A stretch of 64,000 nucleotides of DNA. Source: Clavelina lepadiformis. Its lineage: Eukaryota > Chordata > Ascidiacea > Aplousobranchia > Clavelinidae. The stretch lies in the NCBI RefSeq assembly GCF_947623445.1, contig NC_135245.1:15321501-15385500 (forward strand), read 5' to 3'. The position numbers were made by a program, and so were the translations under genes. The notes beneath the pieces are model-generated. The model did not search any database, was not told the DNA's origin, and worked only from the letters and a program-made list of their open reading frames with translations. This document shows positions 11,674 through 23,693 of this stretch, in pieces (the first letter of the stretch is position 1; every line of letters starts with the position of its first letter).

Positions 11674-11911
11674 CTGAAACAGAGTTGCAACAAAAATATA
11701 ACCAAAGTGATTCACAATACCTGTGACATGAACTTTTCAAACGAAAACAAGCACAACCATATTGTATCAATTTTCCTAGTAGAAAGAGCTAGTAGTATAG
11801 TGGTGCCACCTCAGGACTCTTACCGCCACCGCCACCGCCAACCCGCCAACCCGCCAACCGGCAATCTGTCAGATTAGGTCATTCAAGTAATTAGGTCATA
11901 TGTAAAAAGAG

Positions 11912-12090
11912 AAAAGTGACGTCATAGTTTTCGTTAGCGCCACCACACGTAAAGAAAAAAGATGTTAGAAAAAGTACAAGTGTAAAAGTGACGTCATAGT
12001 TTTCGTTAGCGCCACCACACGTAAAGAAAAAAGATGTTAGAAAAAGTACAAGTGTAAAAGTGACGTCATAGTTTTCGTTAGCGCCAACGT
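11912..12090 (+). repeat. 72-bp tandem repeat with CRE sites, left arm
   Basis: Units start at 11912, 11984 and 12056 (two full, one partial). Each begins AAAAGTGACGTCATAG, so each has the complete palindromic CREB/ATF site TGACGTCA, followed by TTTCGTTAGCGCCA. Sites are exactly 72 bases apart. It lies upstream of both genes of the arm and could act as a cAMP- or stress-responsive enhancer; that role is inference. Confidence 0.8.
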
Positions 12091-12329
12091 GTGGTGTTCT
12101 AGATTTGTAGAGGAAAAAACATCTTGGGTTTGTGGATATTCGATATCAGTTACATCATAGTTTCAGTGTAAAGTATACAGAACGATGAACCGTATGCATT
12201 GCCACCTGGAATCATATGGAGAAAAGCCTAGAGTAAGAATGCGTTAATTGACACACTAACATGACCTGGTTATGAAATCCAGCTTGGGTTGAAATAAGCC
12301 AGACTTTAGAAACAAAGCATTGGAAGGTA

Positions 12330-12620
12330 TTACAACCAATCCATTCGATTCCAGGTGTAAGAGAAGAATAAATAATAGCTGGTACCCAGATGTGATTTTT
12401 CTTGACCCGATTATAAAGGCAAGTCCAAACTTGTCTGATTGAAACAAGTGTGTTGGACAGGTCGAAAGGGTGGTATATTGCGCAATCTCACCAATCCACT
12501 CACAGCCAGTTGTGGGAAAGAATAACGGAAAGCTGGTATCCAGATGTGATTTTTCTTGACCCGGTTATAAAGGCAGTCCAAACCTGTCTGATTGAAACAA
12601 GTGTGTTGGACATTACTATT
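12330..12620 (+). promoter_or_regulatory. Duplicated TATA-bearing block, left arm
   Basis: A module is repeated about 154 bases apart (AGCTGGTAC at 12377 and AGCTGGTAT at 12531). Both copies contain CCAGATGTGATTTTTCTTGA, then a TATAAA box in GATTATAAAGGC or GGTTATAAAGGC, then TTGAAACAAGTGTGTTGGAC. This looks like two tandem core promoters in front of the small gene at 12782-13627. Function is inferred from the TATA boxes and position. Confidence 0.45.
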
Positions 12621-12781
12621 CAGCTAGAGCAGTCATCTTTGTTAAAAAACTGTACTTGCTAGCATTAGATATAATCGTTTAGAGGAGGTAAACTTGTTTC
12701 GCATTGATAATTAATGAATAATATTGGATATTACTATTCAACAAAGCTTACGGTTTTAGTAATAAATTAGTATTTTTACAG

Positions 12782-13627
12782 TACCAAGAAGATTAAACTT
12801 CAACAAAAAACACATCAGAAGGAATAGGAAACGCTGTAAATTTTGTGTGCGGACATTTACAAAGTGAGTACACAATAAACTTTATGGATGAAATATCATT
12901 TTCAATCTATACTGTATATTAGTTTAAGAGATTTGAAAAAACATATGAGACGCTCACACCAACCGCGTGTAGTACCAAGACCCCAGATTCCTCGCCCTAG
13001 AACGATTGTGGTGGATGGCGATACAATCGCAGAGGATATTCCTGAAGATTACAGGTAAAAATAAAACATGATTGATATCAAATAACAATTCATGAAAGGA
13101 GTTTATTTTATTTTTGAAGGGGTATCTATCAAAGCAATTGGCGAGCAATACGAACTCATTTTCATATCGGTAATACGGTTCAAGAGCGTTACACGTTTCG
13201 TATCCCTGACCAAAGCATGATCGATCAAGGTCTCGAATCATTATGGCCATACTTTCGTGAAAATATTTTCCAGAGACAACGACAACCGTTCAAAATCCGT
13301 GTCGCATTTGGATTTATTTTACGACATGAAGGAAATGAAGAAGACTTACCAGTAGTATATCGTTACTTTCATCCGGACAATCACTCCGATTATTTGTATT
13401 TAGGCCCTGAAACCATCCGCGATCGAACCGAATTCGATCAATTCCTTATCGATATTCAACGGAAGAATATCAGACAATGGTCGGATAGATTAAAATCCGA
13501 AAGCGCTTGGGTCGTGGAATCTATCTGTAATGTTGAATTTTACATCAATCCACTTCGGTATATACCGATTGGTATACCAGAAGCATTACCTGAATTTATT
13601 ATTTCAAATAAAGGTCGATTTGTATGA
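12782..13627 (+). CDS. C2H2-finger protein with Maverick/Polinton-type N-terminal domain, left copy
   Basis: Three exon-like blocks (12782-12863, 12923-13054, 13120-13627) with GT-AG borders. The first two cover a C2H2-type zinc finger followed by a Pro/Arg-rich linker. The third carries a domain with FRIPDQSMIDQGLESLWPYF, a mid-section YRYFHPDNHSDYLYLGPE and an end block WVVESICNVEFYINPLRYIP. The same order (finger, an F-R-S/H-containing core, then W-V-x-x-I ... Y-N-P-L-x-G ... L-P-x-x-I-x-N-K) precedes the DNA polymerase region in many Maverick/Polinton-type elements of invertebrates, as I remember them. Only this N-terminal part is present, so as a virus-like remnant it is a fragment. An AATAAA follows at once (13632). 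The start codon was not located; an upstream exon is likely. The link to that family is inference. Confidence 0.5.
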
Positions 13628-14563
13628 GGTGACAATAAAGAAAAAACGTGTGATTTGGAATCTCCCCATCCAGATACATATGATGAAATACAGCCTACAG
13701 TAACGCCTACACAAAACAATTTACAGTGTTCAACCACTTCATACAGGAAAAAAAAATTTTAAAACAACTTTAAGTTGTCAACGTTTTATTCCATTATCCA
13801 ACTTTTAACCTAAGAATAGAGTTTGAGATATAAATTTATACTAAACTATAGCTCGTGTAATTGGGTAATGCGAAGAAGTCTTAAGTATATAGCCCCGAAA
13901 AACATAGCTTTAGGCTATTCGCTTTTCAAAAAATACAAAATATTGGAATACATCGATCGACGGATGAAATAAAACTAAGACCGCGTTTCGTTAGGTATAG
14001 AAAAACTATAAAATTTTCTTGCTTTGGTTGAATTATTCAAACCATTTAAACTTATTCCGCTGATCATATTCATATATACTCAACTTTCTTTAGAAAAGAA
14101 CGCGTTCAAACCGAAAGAAATGATTCCAACACCACAAAATTGGAAAATAAATATGCGGTTAAAAGCAAGTGTAAACTGTTTTTGATTGATTCTTCCTAAG
14201 CCAACTTAACTTATAAGTTATGATTTAACAAAATGCATTAAAATAAGCATATTTTTTCCTAAACACTGTTTGGTTTGATACACTTTAGTTTGGTAAAAGC
14301 ATGACGAAACAGTATGTAAACAATATATGGTTTAATTAACCTGGTTATTTATTTTTTTTATTTTATTTTTTTATTTTTTCATATGCAAATACTTTTTGCA
14401 CGTAAAACAGAAGTTCTTAAACTTTTTCATCTTACTTATTCCCACAAAATAAATGTAAATGTGAGAAGAATCAAGGAGCAACGAACTGCTTGTATACCAT
14501 TGCGATTAAGTTTCATTGTTTATCGAGGTAGTAGTGATTTAAGTTATCTCTTTACAGAATGAA

Positions 14564-16945
14564 ATGCAAACGGATCACCTTACCGCGGATTTCCCGGATC
14601 TAGAAAGTGACGGGAGGTTGTTGAGACAAGTTACAGATCCACCAGGACAACAAAGTCGTTACATTCCACCCGGTAGGTTGGAAAATCATGTTTGAGAATC
14701 ACGTTCCAGAGAAACGTAGGTTTTTACGTCACGATCCTATTTCTGTTAGTACAGGTGATCCAACACGCGAGACCTATCGTCTTTCAACTTTCAAACTATT
14801 TCCCAGAGAAGTACAGGTCGATGTTCGTAAGTTGGCTGCTGCTGGTTTTTATTTCACTGGTTTTAAAGACAGGACCAAGTGCTTCAGGTAACGTCTTGTT
14901 CATTAAAATAGAGACTTGGATACATAAAATACGGGACTTAATTTCTAATCAAACAAATACGTTTAAACAAGTTGTGCGAATAGTTTTACGTTCAAAAACA
15001 CTATCATAAAACAAATCTCAACTTCATTCCAGTTGTGGTCAATCTGTCCAAGAATGGGAAGTCGAAGATGACCCGAAGCTACTCCGATGGCATAGATCCA
15101 ATTGTGATATCATTAACGGAAAGGATACAAGAAACATACCAATCGGTTAGTTAAGACAAAGATTTCAATTAATTTGTAAGAAAAAAAAAAAGAGAAGCAT
15201 CGAATCAATCTGATCTGTAATACCAACAAAGTGTAAAGATGGATCGATGTTTAAAACGTCTCAAAAGCGTAAATGAACCGAACCAAATCTTGATTCTTTT
15301 TTGTAGTTTCATGAAACTACACCTGAAATTGCCTTATTATACTACCGTTTACGCTGTCATAATAGAACGAGTTACGTGAGTGAGTAGTGAATTCTCCGTT
15401 CATACGACGTTACTTCCACTACCTTGTAAATATTGATTAAATCTAGATTCCATTCTTCGTCAATTCGAACTTATTCCACCCCATGGCCATGGAAACGCTA
15501 CAAGTTCAGCCACACGACCGCCAACATCTGGGAATCCACAGGCTTCAGCAGATCAAAGAAAAGTCATTACAAATGGCATTGGTATCACATCAAATTCACC
15601 AATGTTTCAAACAGCTACATTTAGAAATTCTTCGTGCTCCACCCCTCCACCTAGTGTGGTTGCGTCCACCATCGCGAATTCACATAGAAATCTTGCAATT
15701 AATTTGGAGAACATGAACTTGTTTCCATGTTTGAATCCGGTAAATCCCCACATGAAGAGCAAGAAATCTCGTCTCCAAACTTTCCTTGATCACTCGTCAT
15801 CGTGGCCTACTCATAGGATTCGCACAACTCCCAGACAAATTGCAAACGCAGGAATGTATTACTTGGGTGAGGCTCATACTTTCAAGCTTAGGTCTCATAC
15901 CATAAAAAAAATAAAAAAATAAAAATAAAATTTGGTAAGTTGTAGAATTACAAAGTGAAATATTCTCCAGGTGTAAGAGATCGTGTAAAATGTTGGTATT
16001 GCAATGGAGGATTACAAAATTGGGAGAGAGATGACGATCCATGGCAAGAGCACACCAAGTGGTTTCCATTGTAAGTTGAATTTTCTGTCTCCATGAAAGA
16101 ATTTACCAGATTTGGCTTTTTTATGATTTCTATGTTTAACAAACTTGGATCTCCTGCCCAGGTGCGAGTTTGTTCTTCAACAAAAAGGTCCAGATTATGT
16201 TCATGGGATCGCCTTTCGATTCCCCAATCTAAGAAGACCGACAATTCGGAATCCAGCAAATCCAAATCAACTCAGGAATATTCAATCAGGACAAATGTAA
16301 ACCTCCTAAAGTCATGTTCTTGATCATCATCTTGGTTTTGTTCTTTGTAGTTATCTATTTCTTTGTTTAGTTTACGAAACGGACATCGAAATGGTGGCCC
16401 TGAAATCATCGATCCCAGGGAAGAGATAAGATCTCTAGAGCGGAAAGTTGACGGAGAGATGTCTTCGTCTGAACTGGTGGAGCAAGCAAAACTAATGGGA
16501 TTCGACGAAAGAACGATAAAAACTGCTTTGAAAAGGTGAAATTTTGTCAAGAAAGCTATTTTTTAATTTTTATTGCATTACAATTATCAATAGCATTGAA
16601 AACCGATCTTTCTACAGGAAATATGAAACCACTGGTTATGGATTTTCTAGGCTTGAAAATCTCGTTGAGTCTATTCTTGCGATGGAGGAAGAATCTGCTT
16701 CCAATAGATCTGAAGAAGAAGGATTGGCAACAAAGAAAGCAACTCCTTCAATAGCATCTGGACTTCAAGAGATTCGTCGTTTACAGGAGGAAAGAACGTG
16801 TAAAGTTTGTGGCAACGAACAAGCGAGTGTTGTTCTTATTCCATGCGGACATATTGCTTGTTGTATTGGTTGCGCTGAAAACGCATCGACTTGTCCCATT
16901 TGTCGTTTGCGAGTTCGAGAAAAAGTCCGATCTTTTATTGTTTAA
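14564..16945 (+). CDS. Inhibitor-of-apoptosis protein (BIR-BIR-UBA-RING), left copy
   Basis: IAPs bind caspases or their activators through BIR domains and ubiquitinate targets through the RING; they act in the cytosol. Eight exons join without a break: 14564-14672, 14755-14887, 15033-15145, 15447-15866, 15971-16070, 16162-16296, 16371-16535, 16618-16945; 500 residues. BIR1 (about 45-110) has [20 protein letters not shown] and CFSC. BIR2 (about 225-295) has [15 protein letters not shown] and a canonical C-x2-C-x16-H-x6-C. A UBA-like region (about 365-410, [19 protein letters not shown]) precedes a complete C3HC4 RING (about 453-490) and the family's terminal VRSFIV. This is the XIAP/cIAP layout with one BIR fewer. 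BIR1 has odd zinc spacing (see findings). ATG 14564 follows an acceptor (TTTACAG at 14551-14557), so the true start may be in an upstream exon. No disabling change is visible. Confidence 0.9.
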
Positions 16946-17261
16946 AGCAAAAGTTTGGATTCTTTTGAAATGTAAGTCAACGCCGCGCTATGGTGATTTG
17001 ATATGAAGTGTGAACCGTATTTAGAGCGCTACCTTGCGTTATCCTCACAATCGATTCAGTTACAAACATCATCGCTGGCTGGCAGTACGATAACATCCAA
17101 AACTTTTCAATTTAAATTGTTATTCAAAAAACTTGCCTTGTATAGTATTTTCTGGAATTTCCCAAAGGTTCTTTTCAAGTTTTGAACATGTATTCACGTT
17201 GCTATCATATTATAATTCGTTACATAGCCATTTATTTCATCACCGTTGCGCAATATGCGTT

Positions 17262-17934
17262 TCGCGATCGTCATACCTTGAAATCATTTGCCTCTGGCTA
17301 CTCTCCAAGCTTTCAAGGAAAAGTATGAAAAAGCAAACTTATATTCACGATCGATCAGCATGATGATAGTCTTAAAATAGATATTCGTTTCTATTGGAAT
17401 CATACTCACAAATATATCAAATTGAAACGTTTAAGAGGTCTGTAAACACACACATCCAGTATGCTTGTGCTTTTTTAATAGGTTCAGTGATAATACAACA
17501 CACTCAAGGATTAAAATAAAGCAGTAATTCCTGAAAGCGGGTTACAAGATTCTTCGATCAGCAAAACAAAAATTCCAACGCTTAAACGACATGCTTTAAA
17601 ATACAGCTTCTTGAAGGAATTTCGTAAAATCACGCTGTAACAGTGTGCAGAAGTTTCGCAAGACAACGACTTAGTTTTCGGCTCACTTGACTGATCATTG
17701 TCTGTCACAGGATCACTTTCCTGGTTTCGGCGCAAGAAACATTGTTAAAATCAACACACGATTGGAGGAATCGAATCGCTGAAATGTTACAAAAGGTATT
17801 TTTCATCAGGGCAATCGTGAAACGTCCGGCGCCAAACATTCTATTTGGAGTTTCAAACGCATATTGCATATTTTTCATCAGGGCAATCGTGAAACGTCCG
17901 GCGCCAAACATTCTATTTGGAGTTTCAAACACAT
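17262..17934. other. Unique 673-bp centre of the palindrome with a 62-bp direct repeat
   Basis: The centre is not part of either arm. It contains an exact 62-bp direct repeat (17797-17858 and 17869-17930) separated by GCATATTGCA. The word CGCATATTGC occurs at the repeat joint and again where the right arm begins, and its complement GCAATATGCG closes the left arm. This shared word at the breakpoints suggests template switching or homology-assisted joining. An AATAAA at 17515-17520 could end transcripts from the left IAP gene. No coding frame is convincing. Confidence 0.7.
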
Positions 17935-18250
17935 AACGCATATTGCGCAACGGTGATGAAATAAATGGCTATGTAACGAATTATAATATGATAGCAACGT
18001 GAATACATGTTCAAAACTTGAAAAGAACCTTTGGGAAATTCCAGAAAATACTATACAAGGCAAGTTTTTTGAATAACAATTTAAATTGAAAAGTTTTGGA
18101 TGTTATCGTACTGCCAGCCAGCGATGATGTTTGTAACTGAATCGATTGTGAGGATAACGCAAGGTAGCGCTCTAAATACGGTTCACACTTCATATCAAAT
18201 CACCATAGCGCGGCGTTGACTTACATTTCAAAAGAATCCAAACTTTTGCT

Positions 18251-20632
18251 TTAAACAATAAAAGATCGGACTTTTTCTCGAACTCGCAAACGACAAATGG
18301 GACAAGTCGATGCGTTTTCAGCGCAACCAATACAACAAGCAATATGTCCGCATGGAATAAGAACAACACTCGCTTGTTCGTTGCCACAAACTTTACACGT
18401 TCTTTCCTCCTGTAAACGACGAATCTCTTGAAGTCCAGATGCTATTGAAGGAGTTGCTTTCTTTGTTGCCAATCCTTCTTCTTCAGATCTATTGGAAGCA
18501 GATTCTTCCTCCATCGCAAGAATAGACTCAACGAGATTTTCAAGCCTAGAAAATCCATAACCAGTGGTTTCATATTTCCTGTAGAAAGATCGGTTTTCAA
18601 TGCTATTGATAATTGTAATGCAATAAAAATTAAAAAATAGCTTTCTTGACAAAATTTCACCTTTTCAAAGCAGTTTTTATCGTTCTTTCGTCGAATCCCA
18701 TTAGTTTTGCTTGCTCCACCAGTTCAGACGAAGACATCTCTCCGTCAACTTTCCGCTCTAGAGATCTTATCTCTTCCCTGGGATCGATGATTTCAGGGCC
18801 ACCATTTCGATGTCCGTTTCGTAAACTAAACAAAGAAATAGATAACTACAAAGAACAAAACCAAGATGATGATCAAGAACATGACTTTAGGAGGTTTACA
18901 TTTGTCCTGATTGAATATTCCTGAGTTGATTTGGATTTGCTGGATTCCGAATTGTCGGTCTTCTTAGATTGGGGAATCGAAAGGCGATCCCATGAACATA
19001 ATCTGGACCTTTTTGTTGAAGAACAAACTCGCACCTGGGCAGGAGATCCAAGTTTGTTAAACATAGAAATCATAAAAAAGCCAAATCTGGTAAATTCTTT
19101 CATGGAGACAGAAAATTCAACTTACAATGGAAACCACTTGGTGTGCTCTTGCCATGGATCGTCATCTCTCTCCCAATTTTGTAATCCTCCATTGCAATAC
19201 CAACATTTTACACGATCTCTTACACCTGGAGAATATTTCACTTTGTAATTCTACAACTTACCAAATTTTATTTTTATTTTTTTATTTTTTTTATGGTATG
19301 AGACCTAAGCTTGAAAGTATGAGCCTCACCCAAGTAATACATTCCTGCGTTTGCAATTTGTCTGGGAGTTGTGCGAATCCTATGAGTAGGCCACGATGAC
19401 GAGTGATCAAGGAAAGTTTGGAGACGAGATTTCTTGCTCTTCATGTGGGGATTTACCGGATTCAAACATGGAAACAAGTTCATGTTCTCCAAATTAATTG
19501 CAAGATTTCTATGTGAATTCGCGATGGTGGACGCAACCACACTAGGTGGAGGGGTGGAGCACGAAGAATTTCTAAATGTAGCTGTTTGAAACATTGGTGA
19601 ATTTGATGTGATACCAATGCCATTTGTAATGACTTTTCTTTGATCTGCTGAAGCCTGTGGATTCCCAGATGTTGGCGGTCGTGTGGCTGAACTTGTAGCG
19701 TTTCCATGGCCATGGGGTGGAATAAGTTCGAATTGACGAAGAATGGAATCTAGATTTAATCAATATTTACAAGGTAGTGGAAGTAACGTCGTATGAACGG
19801 AGAATTCACTACTCACTCACGTAACTCGTTCTATTATGACAGCGTAAACGGTAGTATAATAAGGCAATTTCAGGTGTAGTTTCATGAAACTACAAAAAAG
19901 AATCAAGATTTGGTTCGGTTCATTTACGCTTTTGAGACGTTTTAAACATCGATCCATCTTTACACTTTGTTGGTATTACAGATCAGATTGATTCGATGCT
20001 TCTCTTTTTTTTTTTCTTACAAATTAATTGAAATCTTTGTCTTAACTAACCGATTGGTATGTTTCTTGTATCCTTTCCGTTAATGATATCACAATTGGAT
20101 CTATGCCATCGGAGTAGCTTCGGGTCATCTTCGACTTCCCATTCTTGGACAGATTGACCACAACTGGAATGAAGTTGAGATTTGTTTTATGATAGTGTTT
20201 TTGAACGTAAAACTATTCGCACAACTTGTTTAAACGTATTTGTTTGATTAGAAATTAAGTCCCGTATTTTATGTATCCAAGTCTCTATTTTAATGAACAA
20301 GACGTTACCTGAAGCACTTGGTCCTGTCTTTAAAACCAGTGAAATAAAAACCAGCAGCAGCCAACTTACGAACATCGACCTGTACTTCTCTGGGAAATAG
20401 TTTGAAAGTTGAAAGACGATAGGTCTCGCGTGTTGGATCACCTGTACTAACAGAAATAGGATCGTGACGTAAAAACCTACGTTTCTCTGGAACGTGATTC
20501 TCAAACATGATTTTCCAACCTACCGGGTGGAATGTAACGACTTTGTTGTCCTGGTGGATCTGTAACTTGTCTCAACAACCTCCCGTCACTTTCTAGATCC
20601 GGGAAATCCGCGGTAAGGTGATCCGTTTGCAT
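18251..20632 (-). CDS. Inhibitor-of-apoptosis protein (BIR-BIR-UBA-RING), right copy
   Basis: Mirror image of the left IAP gene with identical predicted exon sequences wherever compared. Exons in coding order: 20524-20632, 20309-20441, 20051-20163, 19330-19749, 19126-19225, 18900-19034, 18661-18825, 18251-18578. The 500-residue product has the same two BIRs, UBA and RING. It converges on the left copy, with 1.3 kb between the two stop codons. Identical introns as well as exons show that the copy arose by DNA duplication and not through an mRNA. With no selection-only explanation for identical introns, the duplication must be young or the arms are being homogenised by gene conversion. Confidence 0.9.
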
Positions 20633-21568
20633 TTCATTCTGTAAAGAGATAACTTAAATCACTACTACCTCGATAAACAATGAAACTTAATCGCAATGGT
20701 ATACAAGCAGTTCGTTGCTCCTTGATTCTTCTCACATTTACATTTATTTTGTGGGAATAAGTAAGATGAAAAAGTTTAAGAACTTCTGTTTTACGTGCAA
20801 AAAGTATTTGCATATGAAAAAATAAAAAAATAAAATAAAAAAAATAAATAACCAGGTTAATTAAACCATATATTGTTTACATACTGTTTCGTCATGCTTT
20901 TACCAAACTAAAGTGTATCAAACCAAACAGTGTTTAGGAAAAAATATGCTTATTTTAATGCATTTTGTTAAATCATAACTTATAAGTTAAGTTGGCTTAG
21001 GAAGAATCAATCAAAAACAGTTTACACTTGCTTTTAACCGCATATTTATTTTCCAATTTTGTGGTGTTGGAATCATTTCTTTCGGTTTGAACGCGTTCTT
21101 TTCTAAAGAAAGTTGAGTATATATGAATATGATCAGCGGAATAAGTTTAAATGGTTTGAATAATTCAACCAAAGCAAGAAAATTTTATAGTTTTTCTATA
21201 CCTAACGAAACGCGGTCTTAGTTTTATTTCATCCGTCGATCGATGTATTCCAATATTTTGTATTTTTTGAAAAGCGAATAGCCTAAAGCTATGTTTTTCG
21301 GGGCTATATACTTAAGACTTCTTCGCATTACCCAATTACACGAGCTATAGTTTAGTATAAATTTATATCTCAAACTCTATTCTTAGGTTAAAAGTTGGAT
21401 AATGGAATAAAACGTTGACAACTTAAAGTTGTTTTAAAATTTTTTTTTCCTGTATGAAGTGGTTGAACACTGTAAATTGTTTTGTGTAGGCGTTACTGTA
21501 GGCTGTATTTCATCATATGTATCTGGATGGGGAGATTCCAAATCACACGTTTTTTCTTTATTGTCACC

Positions 21569-22414
21569 TCATACAAATCGACCTTTATTTGAAATAATAA
21601 ATTCAGGTAATGCTTCTGGTATACCAATCGGTATATACCGAAGTGGATTGATGTAAAATTCAACATTACAGATAGATTCCACGACCCAAGCGCTTTCGGA
21701 TTTTAATCTATCCGACCATTGTCTGATATTCTTCCGTTGAATATCGATAAGGAATTGATCGAATTCGGTTCGATCGCGGATGGTTTCAGGGCCTAAATAC
21801 AAATAATCGGAGTGATTGTCCGGATGAAAGTAACGATATACTACTGGTAAGTCTTCTTCATTTCCTTCATGTCGTAAAATAAATCCAAATGCGACACGGA
21901 TTTTGAACGGTTGTCGTTGTCTCTGGAAAATATTTTCACGAAAGTATGGCCATAATGATTCGAGACCTTGATCGATCATGCTTTGGTCAGGGATACGAAA
22001 CGTGTAACGCTCTTGAACCGTATTACCGATATGAAAATGAGTTCGTATTGCTCGCCAATTGCTTTGATAGATACCCCTTCAAAAATAAAATAAACTCCTT
22101 TCATGAATTGTTATTTGATATCAATCATGTTTTATTTTTACCTGTAATCTTCAGGAATATCCTCTGCGATTGTATCGCCATCCACCACAATCGTTCTAGG
22201 GCGAGGAATCTGGGGTCTTGGTACTACACGCGGTTGGTGTGAGCGTCTCATATGTTTTTTCAAATCTCTTAAACTAATATACAGTATAGATTGAAAATGA
22301 TATTTCATCCATAAAGTTTATTGTGTACTCACTTTGTAAATGTCCGCACACAAAATTTACAGCGTTTCCTATTCCTTCTGATGTGTTTTTTGTTGAAGTT
22401 TAATCTTCTTGGTA
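21569..22414 (-). CDS. C2H2-finger protein with Maverick/Polinton-type N-terminal domain, right copy
   Basis: Mirror copy of the left gene: exon-like blocks 22333-22414, 22142-22273 and 21569-22076. Same finger, linker and domain and the same borders. It represents the same N-terminal fragment of a virus-like element protein and has no polymerase part beside it. Confidence 0.5.
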
Positions 22415-22575
22415 CTGTAAAAATACTAATTTATTACTAAAACCGTAAGCTTTGTTGAATAGTAATATCCAATATTATTCATTAATTATCAATGCGAAAC
22501 AAGTTTACCTCCTCTAAACGATTATATCTAATGCTAGCAAGTACAGTTTTTTAACAAAGATGACTGCTCTAGCTG

Positions 22576-22866
22576 AATAGTAATGTCCAACACACTTGTT
22601 TCAATCAGACAGGTTTGGACTGCCTTTATAACCGGGTCAAGAAAAATCACATCTGGATACCAGCTTTCCGTTATTCTTTCCCACAACTGGCTGTGAGTGG
22701 ATTGGTGAGATTGCGCAATATACCACCCTTTCGACCTGTCCAACACACTTGTTTCAATCAGACAAGTTTGGACTTGCCTTTATAATCGGGTCAAGAAAAA
22801 TCACATCTGGGTACCAGCTATTATTTATTCTTCTCTTACACCTGGAATCGAATGGATTGGTTGTAA
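22576..22866 (-). promoter_or_regulatory. Duplicated TATA-bearing block, right arm
   Basis: Mirror copy of 12330-12620, with both TATAAA boxes kept on the minus strand and facing the small finger gene. Confidence 0.45.
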
Positions 22867-23105
22867 TACCTTCCAATGCTTTGTTTCTAAAGTCTGGCTT
22901 ATTTCAACCCAAGCTGGATTTCATAACCAGGTCATGTTAGTGTGTCAATTAACGCATTCTTACTCTAGGCTTTTCTCCATATGATTCCAGGTGGCAATGC
23001 ATACGGTTCATCGTTCTGTATACTTTACACTGAAACTATGATGTAACTGATATCGAATATCCACAAACCCAAGATGTTTTTTCCTCTACAAATCTAGAAC
23101 ACCAC

Positions 23106-23284
23106 ACGTTGGCGCTAACGAAAACTATGACGTCACTTTTACACTTGTACTTTTTCTAACATCTTTTTTCTTTACGTGTGGTGGCGCTAACGAAAACTAT
23201 GACGTCACTTTTACACTTGTACTTTTTCTAACATCTTTTTTCTTTACGTGTGGTGGCGCTAACGAAAACTATGACGTCACTTTT
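23106..23284 (-). repeat. 72-bp tandem repeat with CRE sites, right arm
   Basis: Mirror copy of 11912-12090 with the three TGACGTCA sites kept, making six in the whole palindrome. Confidence 0.8.
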
Positions 23285-23693
23285 CTCTTTTTACATATGA
23301 CCTAATTACTTGAATGACCTAATCTGACAGATTGCCGGTTGGCGGGTTGGCGGGTTGGCGGTGGCGGTGGCGGTAGGAGTCCTGAGGTGGCACCACTAAG
23401 CCACCCTTTAGGTCAACAGACTAATTTAAACCGTTATACATCGTATTTCTCGGTTTGTTAACCGTTCCTATCTCTTTGCTTTTATATTTACGTGTTCAGA
23501 TTTTTTTCCTAGCCTAGGAATTCCCAACTCTTTTTATTCCTCACACCTCTGGAAAACATTCGATATAGATTGTCGTATCCTTTGCTTCCATGAAATGTAG
23601 CTTTCAACCAACAAAATAACAGCCGGGGATCCAAAAATTGCCTTTCTCTGCAGGTTTCGCACCCCTTAAAAAGTTAACTCGTAACCTCAAGAG

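Follow-up and report, generated by a model that had tools for sequence, protein, structure and literature searches.

Polinton/Maverick elements are characterized by terminal inverted repeats (TIRs) beginning with AG and by 6-bp target duplications. Among the adenoviruses and other linear DNA viruses, SYREC-type or copy-back defective genomes carry one viral end on both sides of a linear replicon that is replicated by protein priming, with host DNA lying in between in the case of SYREC. A third group, the Galileo/Foldback elements, contains to our knowledge no Polinton genes and no cargo of the inhibitor-of-apoptosis (IAP) type. Together with the viral IAPs, Polintons and long-TIR Foldback/Galileo elements are the known kinds against which the locus described here has to be set. 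This locus occurs in a stretch of 64,000 nucleotides of the ascidian Clavelina lepadiformis (NC_135245.1, positions 15,321,501 to 15,385,500 of the forward strand), designated the window, and consists of a giant palindrome with an IAP gene in each arm. Most probably it descends from a Polinton/Maverick of the adintovirus type, as a palindromic, non-autonomous element with IAP genes, for which snap-back is the proposed origin and a helper the proposed means of mobilization.

The anatomy of the palindrome is given below in window coordinates. Elements from elsewhere in the genome are designated by contig and position in Mb (e.g., C9:4.98, C6:17.6, C4:7.5), and the Polinton used as a reference resides on contig C5.
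11785 to 11790, no strand: left-flank 6-mer AGAGCT, the expected target-site duplication, with its partner unreadable on the right
11791 to 11799, plus strand: true left terminus AGTAGTATA, from tip alignment and exact tip search
11791 to 12552, plus strand: terminal repeat of the Polinton type, matching the right end of the C5 element at about 85% identity
11798 to 17261, plus strand: left arm of the palindrome, from arm-to-arm alignment
11912 to 12086, plus strand: 72-bp tandem repeat by the left tip, 2.4 units
12773 to 13616, plus strand: PolB 5' region (844 bp), 96% identical to the C5 Polinton
13617 to 13676, plus strand: small later PolB piece (60 bp), 98% identical to the C5 Polinton
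14688 to 16945, plus strand: intact seven-exon IAP gene, 486 amino acids, BIR-BIR-(UBA-like)-RING
17262 to 17934, no strand: central spacer, single-copy in the window, most of it part of both arms in C9:4.98, C2:3.89 and C6:17.6
17935 to 23398, minus strand: right arm of the palindrome, from arm-to-arm alignment
18251 to 20508, minus strand: mirror of the IAP gene, placed by mirror coordinates, the sole arm mismatch lying elsewhere
21520 to 22423, minus strand: mirror of the PolB fragment
23110 to 23284, minus strand: 72-bp tandem repeat by the right tip, mirror copy
23398, minus strand: observed right end, the last 7 bp of the family terminus (AGTAGTA) being missing

Arm alignment confirms the near-perfect palindrome of the original prediction, both arms being reverse complements over 5,464 bp with a fixed coordinate sum of 35196 and a single mismatch (11820/23376). 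The mirror runs unbroken through the seven-exon IAP gene, so that the introns are mirrored as had been claimed, and the tandem repeats announced close to the tips are the 72-bp repeats located in both arms. Identity drops to background beyond the palindrome edges and inside the 673-bp centre, which is what an asymmetric deletion in the middle has left of one arm. From tip to centre, each arm comprises the terminal repeat, the 5' part of PolB, a deletion, the later PolB piece and the IAP block. The virus- or transposon-type gene previously noticed in each arm is identified as the N-terminal part of a Polinton PolB-type protein; as read by hand, its 5' region encodes an intron-interrupted C2H2-like finger, followed by a 169-amino-acid exon, for which Pfam gives only a weak zinc-finger match (E-value 0.053). 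The two PolB pieces are joined across an internal deletion of 2,723 bp relative to the C5 Polinton. Of 14 sequences compared, 8 (L009, L010, L012, L013, L015, L018, L025 and the window) have the later piece behind the identical deletion, which makes a common ancestor of these copies probable. Since the window arms proved to contain PolB pieces and the IAP gene, with no integrase among the parts identified, the element is a non-autonomous derivative that lacks its own complete set of replication and integration genes. A search of the window against Rfam returned no match.

The relationship with Polintons is most readily seen at the tips. Tip alignment gives AGTAGTATAGTG(G/T)TGCCACC as the family terminus, and the window element begins at 11791, i.e., 7 bp further out than the left tip that had been proposed on the basis of a TA border. 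Exact matches to the tip pattern number 33 in the genome (0 for a control pattern), at many sites with differing flanks, and the initial 2 kb of the arm yield at least 106 matches, many of them in inverted pairs, a lower bound because 40 of 71 candidates were scored. The tip search therefore speaks for mobility, as had been anticipated, and the single-copy situation that would have spoken against it does not prevail. Of the 33 tips, 22 combine into 11 complete pairs, and the other 11, the left tip of the window among them, are devoid of an exact partner. As expected from a Polinton, identical 6-bp flanks occur on both sides in 10 of the 11 complete pairs (GCTGTG, CACTAT, TACGAA, AGTATT, TGCCTC, GACTAT, CAAGTC, ACTGAT, TACACC and CCGACG), GCTGTG being the duplication of C9:4.98. 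Ten of the 11 complete elements, including the C5 Polinton (13.96 kb), measure 10.6 to 17.1 kb. In the window copy the duplication is unreadable because the right tip has lost the last 7 bp.

These tips also bear on the possibility that the element is a TA-target (Tc1/mariner-like) transposon with a captured IAP gene. A TA does occur at both edges of the mirrored stretch, but it corresponds to bases 8-9 of the terminal sequence AGTAGTATA, and intact relatives possess 6-bp duplications together with Polinton genes. Being internal to the terminus at the left, and exposed by an end 7 bp short at the right, the TA border is accidental, and the probability of such a transposon is practically nil. 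Of the earlier interpretation, the mobile unit carrying an anti-apoptotic gene of the ubiquitin-ligase type thus stands, while the TA borders as target site have to be abandoned. One side observation concerns the left-flank 6-mer AGAGCT (11785-11790), which is the reverse complement of AGCTCT situated left of the C6:15.109 element (C6:15108758-15108763, L009). The two complementary 6-mers suggest the ends of one insertion, now 0.22 Mb apart, and a possible inversion with its breakpoints in palindromes; a genome search for the empty site, using the join of the two flanks, returned just these flanks themselves.

The C5 Polinton, a relative, displays the architecture of the family from which the tips and the PolB fragment of the window derive.
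C5:10297750-10311707: C5 Polinton, 13,958 bp, target duplication TGCCTC
Its TIRs of approximately 0.8 kb are matched by the window tips at about 85%. The open reading frames (ORFs) encode PolB-type proteins, a packaging-type ATPase, an integrase, a protease-like protein, proteins of 275, 137 and 435 amino acids, and a BIR-RING IAP. In Pfam, the integrase matches rve (PF00665, 1.6e-13) and a chromodomain (PF00385, 1.6e-10), and the ATPase matches both PF04665 (Pox_A32, 1.6e-08) and PF02456 (Adeno_IVa2, 2.4e-05) above the curated cut-off. With regard to an adenain-type cysteine protease, the weak matches of the protease-like protein (PF00770, 0.068; PF02902, 0.058) remain below the cut-offs. The long PolB-type ORFs presumably encode a family-B polymerase, judged from family-B-like motifs read by hand. 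The 435-amino-acid protein is predicted to be a double-jelly-roll major capsid protein, its structural model (mean predicted local distance difference test, pLDDT, 79) matching the Sputnik major capsid protein in Foldseek (1.2e-15) as well as the capsid proteins of mavirus and PBCV-1; in a capsid alignment of 32 sequences, PF21738 was matched by one of the 32 and not by the query. The IAP gene, located on the opposite strand, consists of a single reading frame of 229 amino acids with one BIR (7.4e-20) and a RING (5.3e-13). Compared with such a Polinton, the window element retains one end and PolB pieces, and differs by its nearly full palindromic structure and by two IAP genes of the host type. 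Its ends are accounted for by the Polinton relative. According to PMC3573991, Galileo is assigned by its transposase to the P superfamily; it resembles the window element by very long TIRs, thought to grow by internal recruitment, and by a link to inversions.

Only a few capsid genes are open over their full length, namely those of C5, C6:0.6165 and the pair at C4, and further remnants consist of a 403-amino-acid part at C1:7.095 and four weak fragments. The BIR-RING IAP occurs once at C5, twice at C4 and also at C6:0.618, where the match includes an internal stop. In database comparisons, the capsid-like protein of a related element shows 96% identity to an unnamed protein, and the IAP of that element shows 98% identity, over 89% of its length, to a protein of C. 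lepadiformis. Beside the C5 BIR-RING IAP lies an unnamed 205-amino-acid frame (L022:5613-6227, minus strand) for which Pfam returned no match, and a 194-amino-acid counterpart exists in both arms of the C4 palindrome. Long open frames resembling Gypsy-type retroelements, as judged by eye, flank the Polinton on both sides (C5:10296700-10312800; L021, L022); lodged between such frames, both may be young.

A further type of palindrome is more directly informative about the origin of the structure.
C4:22273248-22285359: C4 palindrome, target duplication GACTAT
Starting at the right end, the C4 element is collinear with the C5 Polinton for some 7.5 kb inward; it then continues on the opposite strand from a point 2.9 kb back and runs over 4,609 bp to the same end, with 7 mismatches. 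In both arms, the reading frames of the capsid protein and of the BIR-RING IAP are open. It is a pure right-end fold-back of a Polinton, with the structure expected for a copy-back product later integrated. The window element probably arose from a Polinton end, comprising the terminal repeat and an eroded PolB, fused to genomic DNA that contained an intron-bearing IAP gene of the host type. End-primed copying of such a one-ended fragment would snap back and provide the same Polinton end on both sides, and the possession of two good ends would again make the palindrome a valid substrate for helper enzymes. The protein-primed polymerase and the retrovirus-type integrase of a helper could then replicate and integrate the palindrome in trans, creating the 6-bp target duplications. 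In contrast to the SYREC-type and copy-back genomes, the palindromes of the window family lie within a chromosome assembly, flanked by target duplications, and form a transposing family with an intact gene.

Several other palindromes allow the arms to be compared with each other. Mismatches over aligned bases, gaps set aside, were counted in the window element and in the following six elements.
C9:4.98: 4 mismatches in 6,074
C2:3.89: 1 mismatch in 7,215, with 96 gap columns (8 mismatches in the BLAST count)
C3:5.40: 8 mismatches in 6,045
C7:16.68: 3 mismatches in 5,888
C6:17.63: 18 mismatches in 5,143, with 517 gap columns
C4:22.27: 7 mismatches in 4,609
According to their centres, two lineages are distinguished, lineage A with one centre common to C9, C2 and C6:17.6, and lineage B with another in C3, C7 and C6:15.13. 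The element C6:15118846-15137713 is a mosaic of an A palindrome and a B palindrome.

Palindromes of this quality are a recognized form of assembly artefact, produced by a missing adapter or a haplotype fold-back, and the element length approaches the 12-20 kb shear size given in PMC10884593. Each element has differing flanks and matching duplications, the arms have private mismatches and several sites have a centre in common, all of which argues against such an artefact, as does the 117-fold HiFi coverage given for the species (PMC10884593); this explanation is very improbable. A host locus with IAP genes that recently underwent an inverted duplication, the alternative put forward in the original prediction, would agree with the almost identical arms and with the arrays of IAP-like exons present in the genome; it is opposed by the Polinton tips at both ends, by the matching 6-bp duplications in relatives at multiple sites and by the location of the seven arm-compared palindromes at different sites, and appears still less credible. 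Both explanations were rejected on these grounds, as was the TA-target transposon on the grounds given above.

The history of the arms was approached through ungapped sites differing among four arms, in the 15 pairs formed by six elements (the window, C9, C6:17.6, C2, C3 and C7). Sites at which both arms of one element oppose both arms of the other amount to 11,182 when summed over the 15 pairs, which overlap and include poorer A-B alignments, so that site sums are not independent counts. Examples are window-C9 with 72 concerted sites (0 by side), window-C6:17.6 with 40 and C3-C7 with 298. Sites separating left arms from right arms total 1, in C3-C7, crosswise sites 0 and single-arm sites 136. 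The large excess of concerted sites over by-side sites indicates that the arms have a common history within each element. The orientation of the spacer is uninformative on arm flipping, since a palindrome reads the same in both directions. Hairpin-like strand replication accounts simply for the concerted arms: each strand being self-complementary, one arm could be recopied from the other at every round of replication, and the arms would stay alike while the elements drift apart.

Gene conversion on the chromosome could also yield concerted arms, and would do so if break repair, or recombination between the two ends, had equipped an ordinary Polinton insertion with long inverted arms that conversion subsequently kept identical. 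A precedent exists in Drosophila, where PMC3573991 proposes that the TIRs of Galileo grow by recruitment of internal sequences and attract recombination and conversion. Such an extension of the TIRs on the chromosome is nevertheless rather unlikely, because the recurrence of one centre in C9:4.98, C2 and C6:17.6 at differing 6-bp duplications, and of another in C3, C7 and C6:15.13, implies that the palindromes were inherited as units and have themselves moved; the private arm mismatches found in 7 of 7 palindromes compared (1 to 18) also speak against it. The Polinton/Maverick parent, the several palindromes of differing make and the concerted arms were unforeseen in the original prediction.

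The cargo of the window palindrome consists of a seven-exon gene with GT-AG introns and a 486-amino-acid product, in which Pfam recognizes BIR in two stretches (PF00653, 1.4e-36) and RING (PF13920, 2e-11), the UBA-like stretch remaining below the cut-off. With its BIR domains and C-terminal RING the predicted protein fits the IAP (BIRC) family, and its best solved relative is BIRC2. The palindrome gene resembles BIRC2/3-XIAP and the viral IAPs in having two BIRs, a UBA-like stretch and a RING, the Polinton gene in having one BIR and a RING, and the window gene departs from them in being present as two mirrored copies within a mobile element. Two IAP forms thus occur in one virus-like family, a single-frame one-BIR form in capsid-bearing elements and an intron-bearing two-BIR form in palindromes. 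Most likely, the IAP would keep a cell alive longer while the element replicates in it. Related associations are found in two sources, BIR domains within a giant planarian retroelement (PMC6431247) and a Maverick and an IAP that merely co-occur (PMC8905726).

Eight palindromes were inspected in one arm each, and in seven of them (the window, C9, C6:17.6, C6:15.109, C3, C7 and C6:15.13) the IAP gene was intact, without stops and with all GT-AG sites. Among eight IAP copies outside palindromes, seven contain stops and one short partial copy (C1:27.6) is stop-free, with the reservation that projected exon limits may overcount stops where the limits have shifted, C4:7.5 having only 2. Between lineages A and B, the ratio of nonsynonymous to synonymous substitution rates (dN/dS) is 0.28-0.30 (12 comparisons), and divergence reaches 12-13% in exons vs 22% in introns. 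Within lineages, dN/dS values of 0.14-0.52 result from few changes and no ratio is obtained where silent changes are absent. The closest IAP copies compared are C4:7.5 (92%) and C6:19.8 (91%), both with stops, and in a tree of 16 IAP regions the nodes placing the A, B, C4:7.5 and C6:19.8 copies have a support of 42-49, compatible with separate as well as joint capture of the IAP by A and B. The presence of the lineage-A centre in C4:7.5 makes it possible that this copy is left over from an ancient palindrome. Arrays of IAP-like exons were encountered at C1:27.51-27.61, C1:28.21-28.29 and C4:6.45-6.47 Mb, and part of the C1:28.2 array set recurs every 18.5 kb or so.

Besides gene conversion, a series of points weighs against the derivation of the window element from a Polinton by snap-back with helper mobilization and IAP cargo. 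The turn-back junction of the C4 element is devoid of clear microhomology. The first C5 PolB ORF has no Pfam match, and the second gives two irrelevant weak matches and no PDB match; the PolB identity depends on the motifs read by hand and on the neighbouring genes. One complete tip pair, C5:20033104-20036644, has no matching flanks. No IAP was detected by tblastn in the left half of C9:11.81, the half searched, whose mirror form was deduced from symmetric matches, nor in the C1:2.06 element, searched in halves; these palindrome-type copies suggest that the IAP is unnecessary for the palindromic form. In C2 the IAP is frameshifted and fused to PolB, the longer PolB reading frame running directly into the first BIR exon. 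Within lineage A, between the window and C9, exons (13 of 1,461, 0.9%) are no less divergent than introns (5 of 793, 0.6%), and the window and C6:17.6 differ by 4 amino-acid changes and 0 silent ones. The signal of selection being confined to the comparison between A and B, the constraint may predate capture.

None of the best-matching literature titles deals with a Polinton carrying an IAP or forming a giant palindrome, and a family of Polintons that combines numerous giant palindromes with IAP genes in pairs appears to be new. A Polinton derivative of this kind would offer a concrete route of gene capture, by which a one-ended fragment turns transmissible by folding back. IAPs in two forms would link the control of cell death to the life of animal Polintons, the arm mismatches may serve as a built-in insertion clock, and giant palindromes of this type are candidate breakpoints of chromosome inversions. 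It is quite conceivable, if still tentative, that the family represents palindromic satellite genomes living off an endogenous double-stranded DNA virus-like element, close to capsid size, with two host anti-death genes and arms homogenized as hairpins. If so, snap-back would restore two ends to one-ended fragments as a general route of host-gene capture by Polintons, and hairpin replication would homogenize the arms at each cycle, so that arm mismatches would date the insertions. A scan of viral contigs with the capsid alignment gave 67 pattern matches and 0 confirmed ones, and is uninformative on IAPs in other such viruses.

Two further loci complete the description. At C5:20027237-20036644 a nested arrangement is found, in which a lineage-A IAP copy adjoins a 3.5-kb element with both tips and unmatched flanks. 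On contig C1, the segments C1:2054823-2060500 and C1:1798923-1804600 are 100% identical over 5,678 bp in inverted orientation, about 0.25 Mb apart, and extend past the element; this pair reflects either an inverted duplication of large size or a duplication introduced by the assembly.

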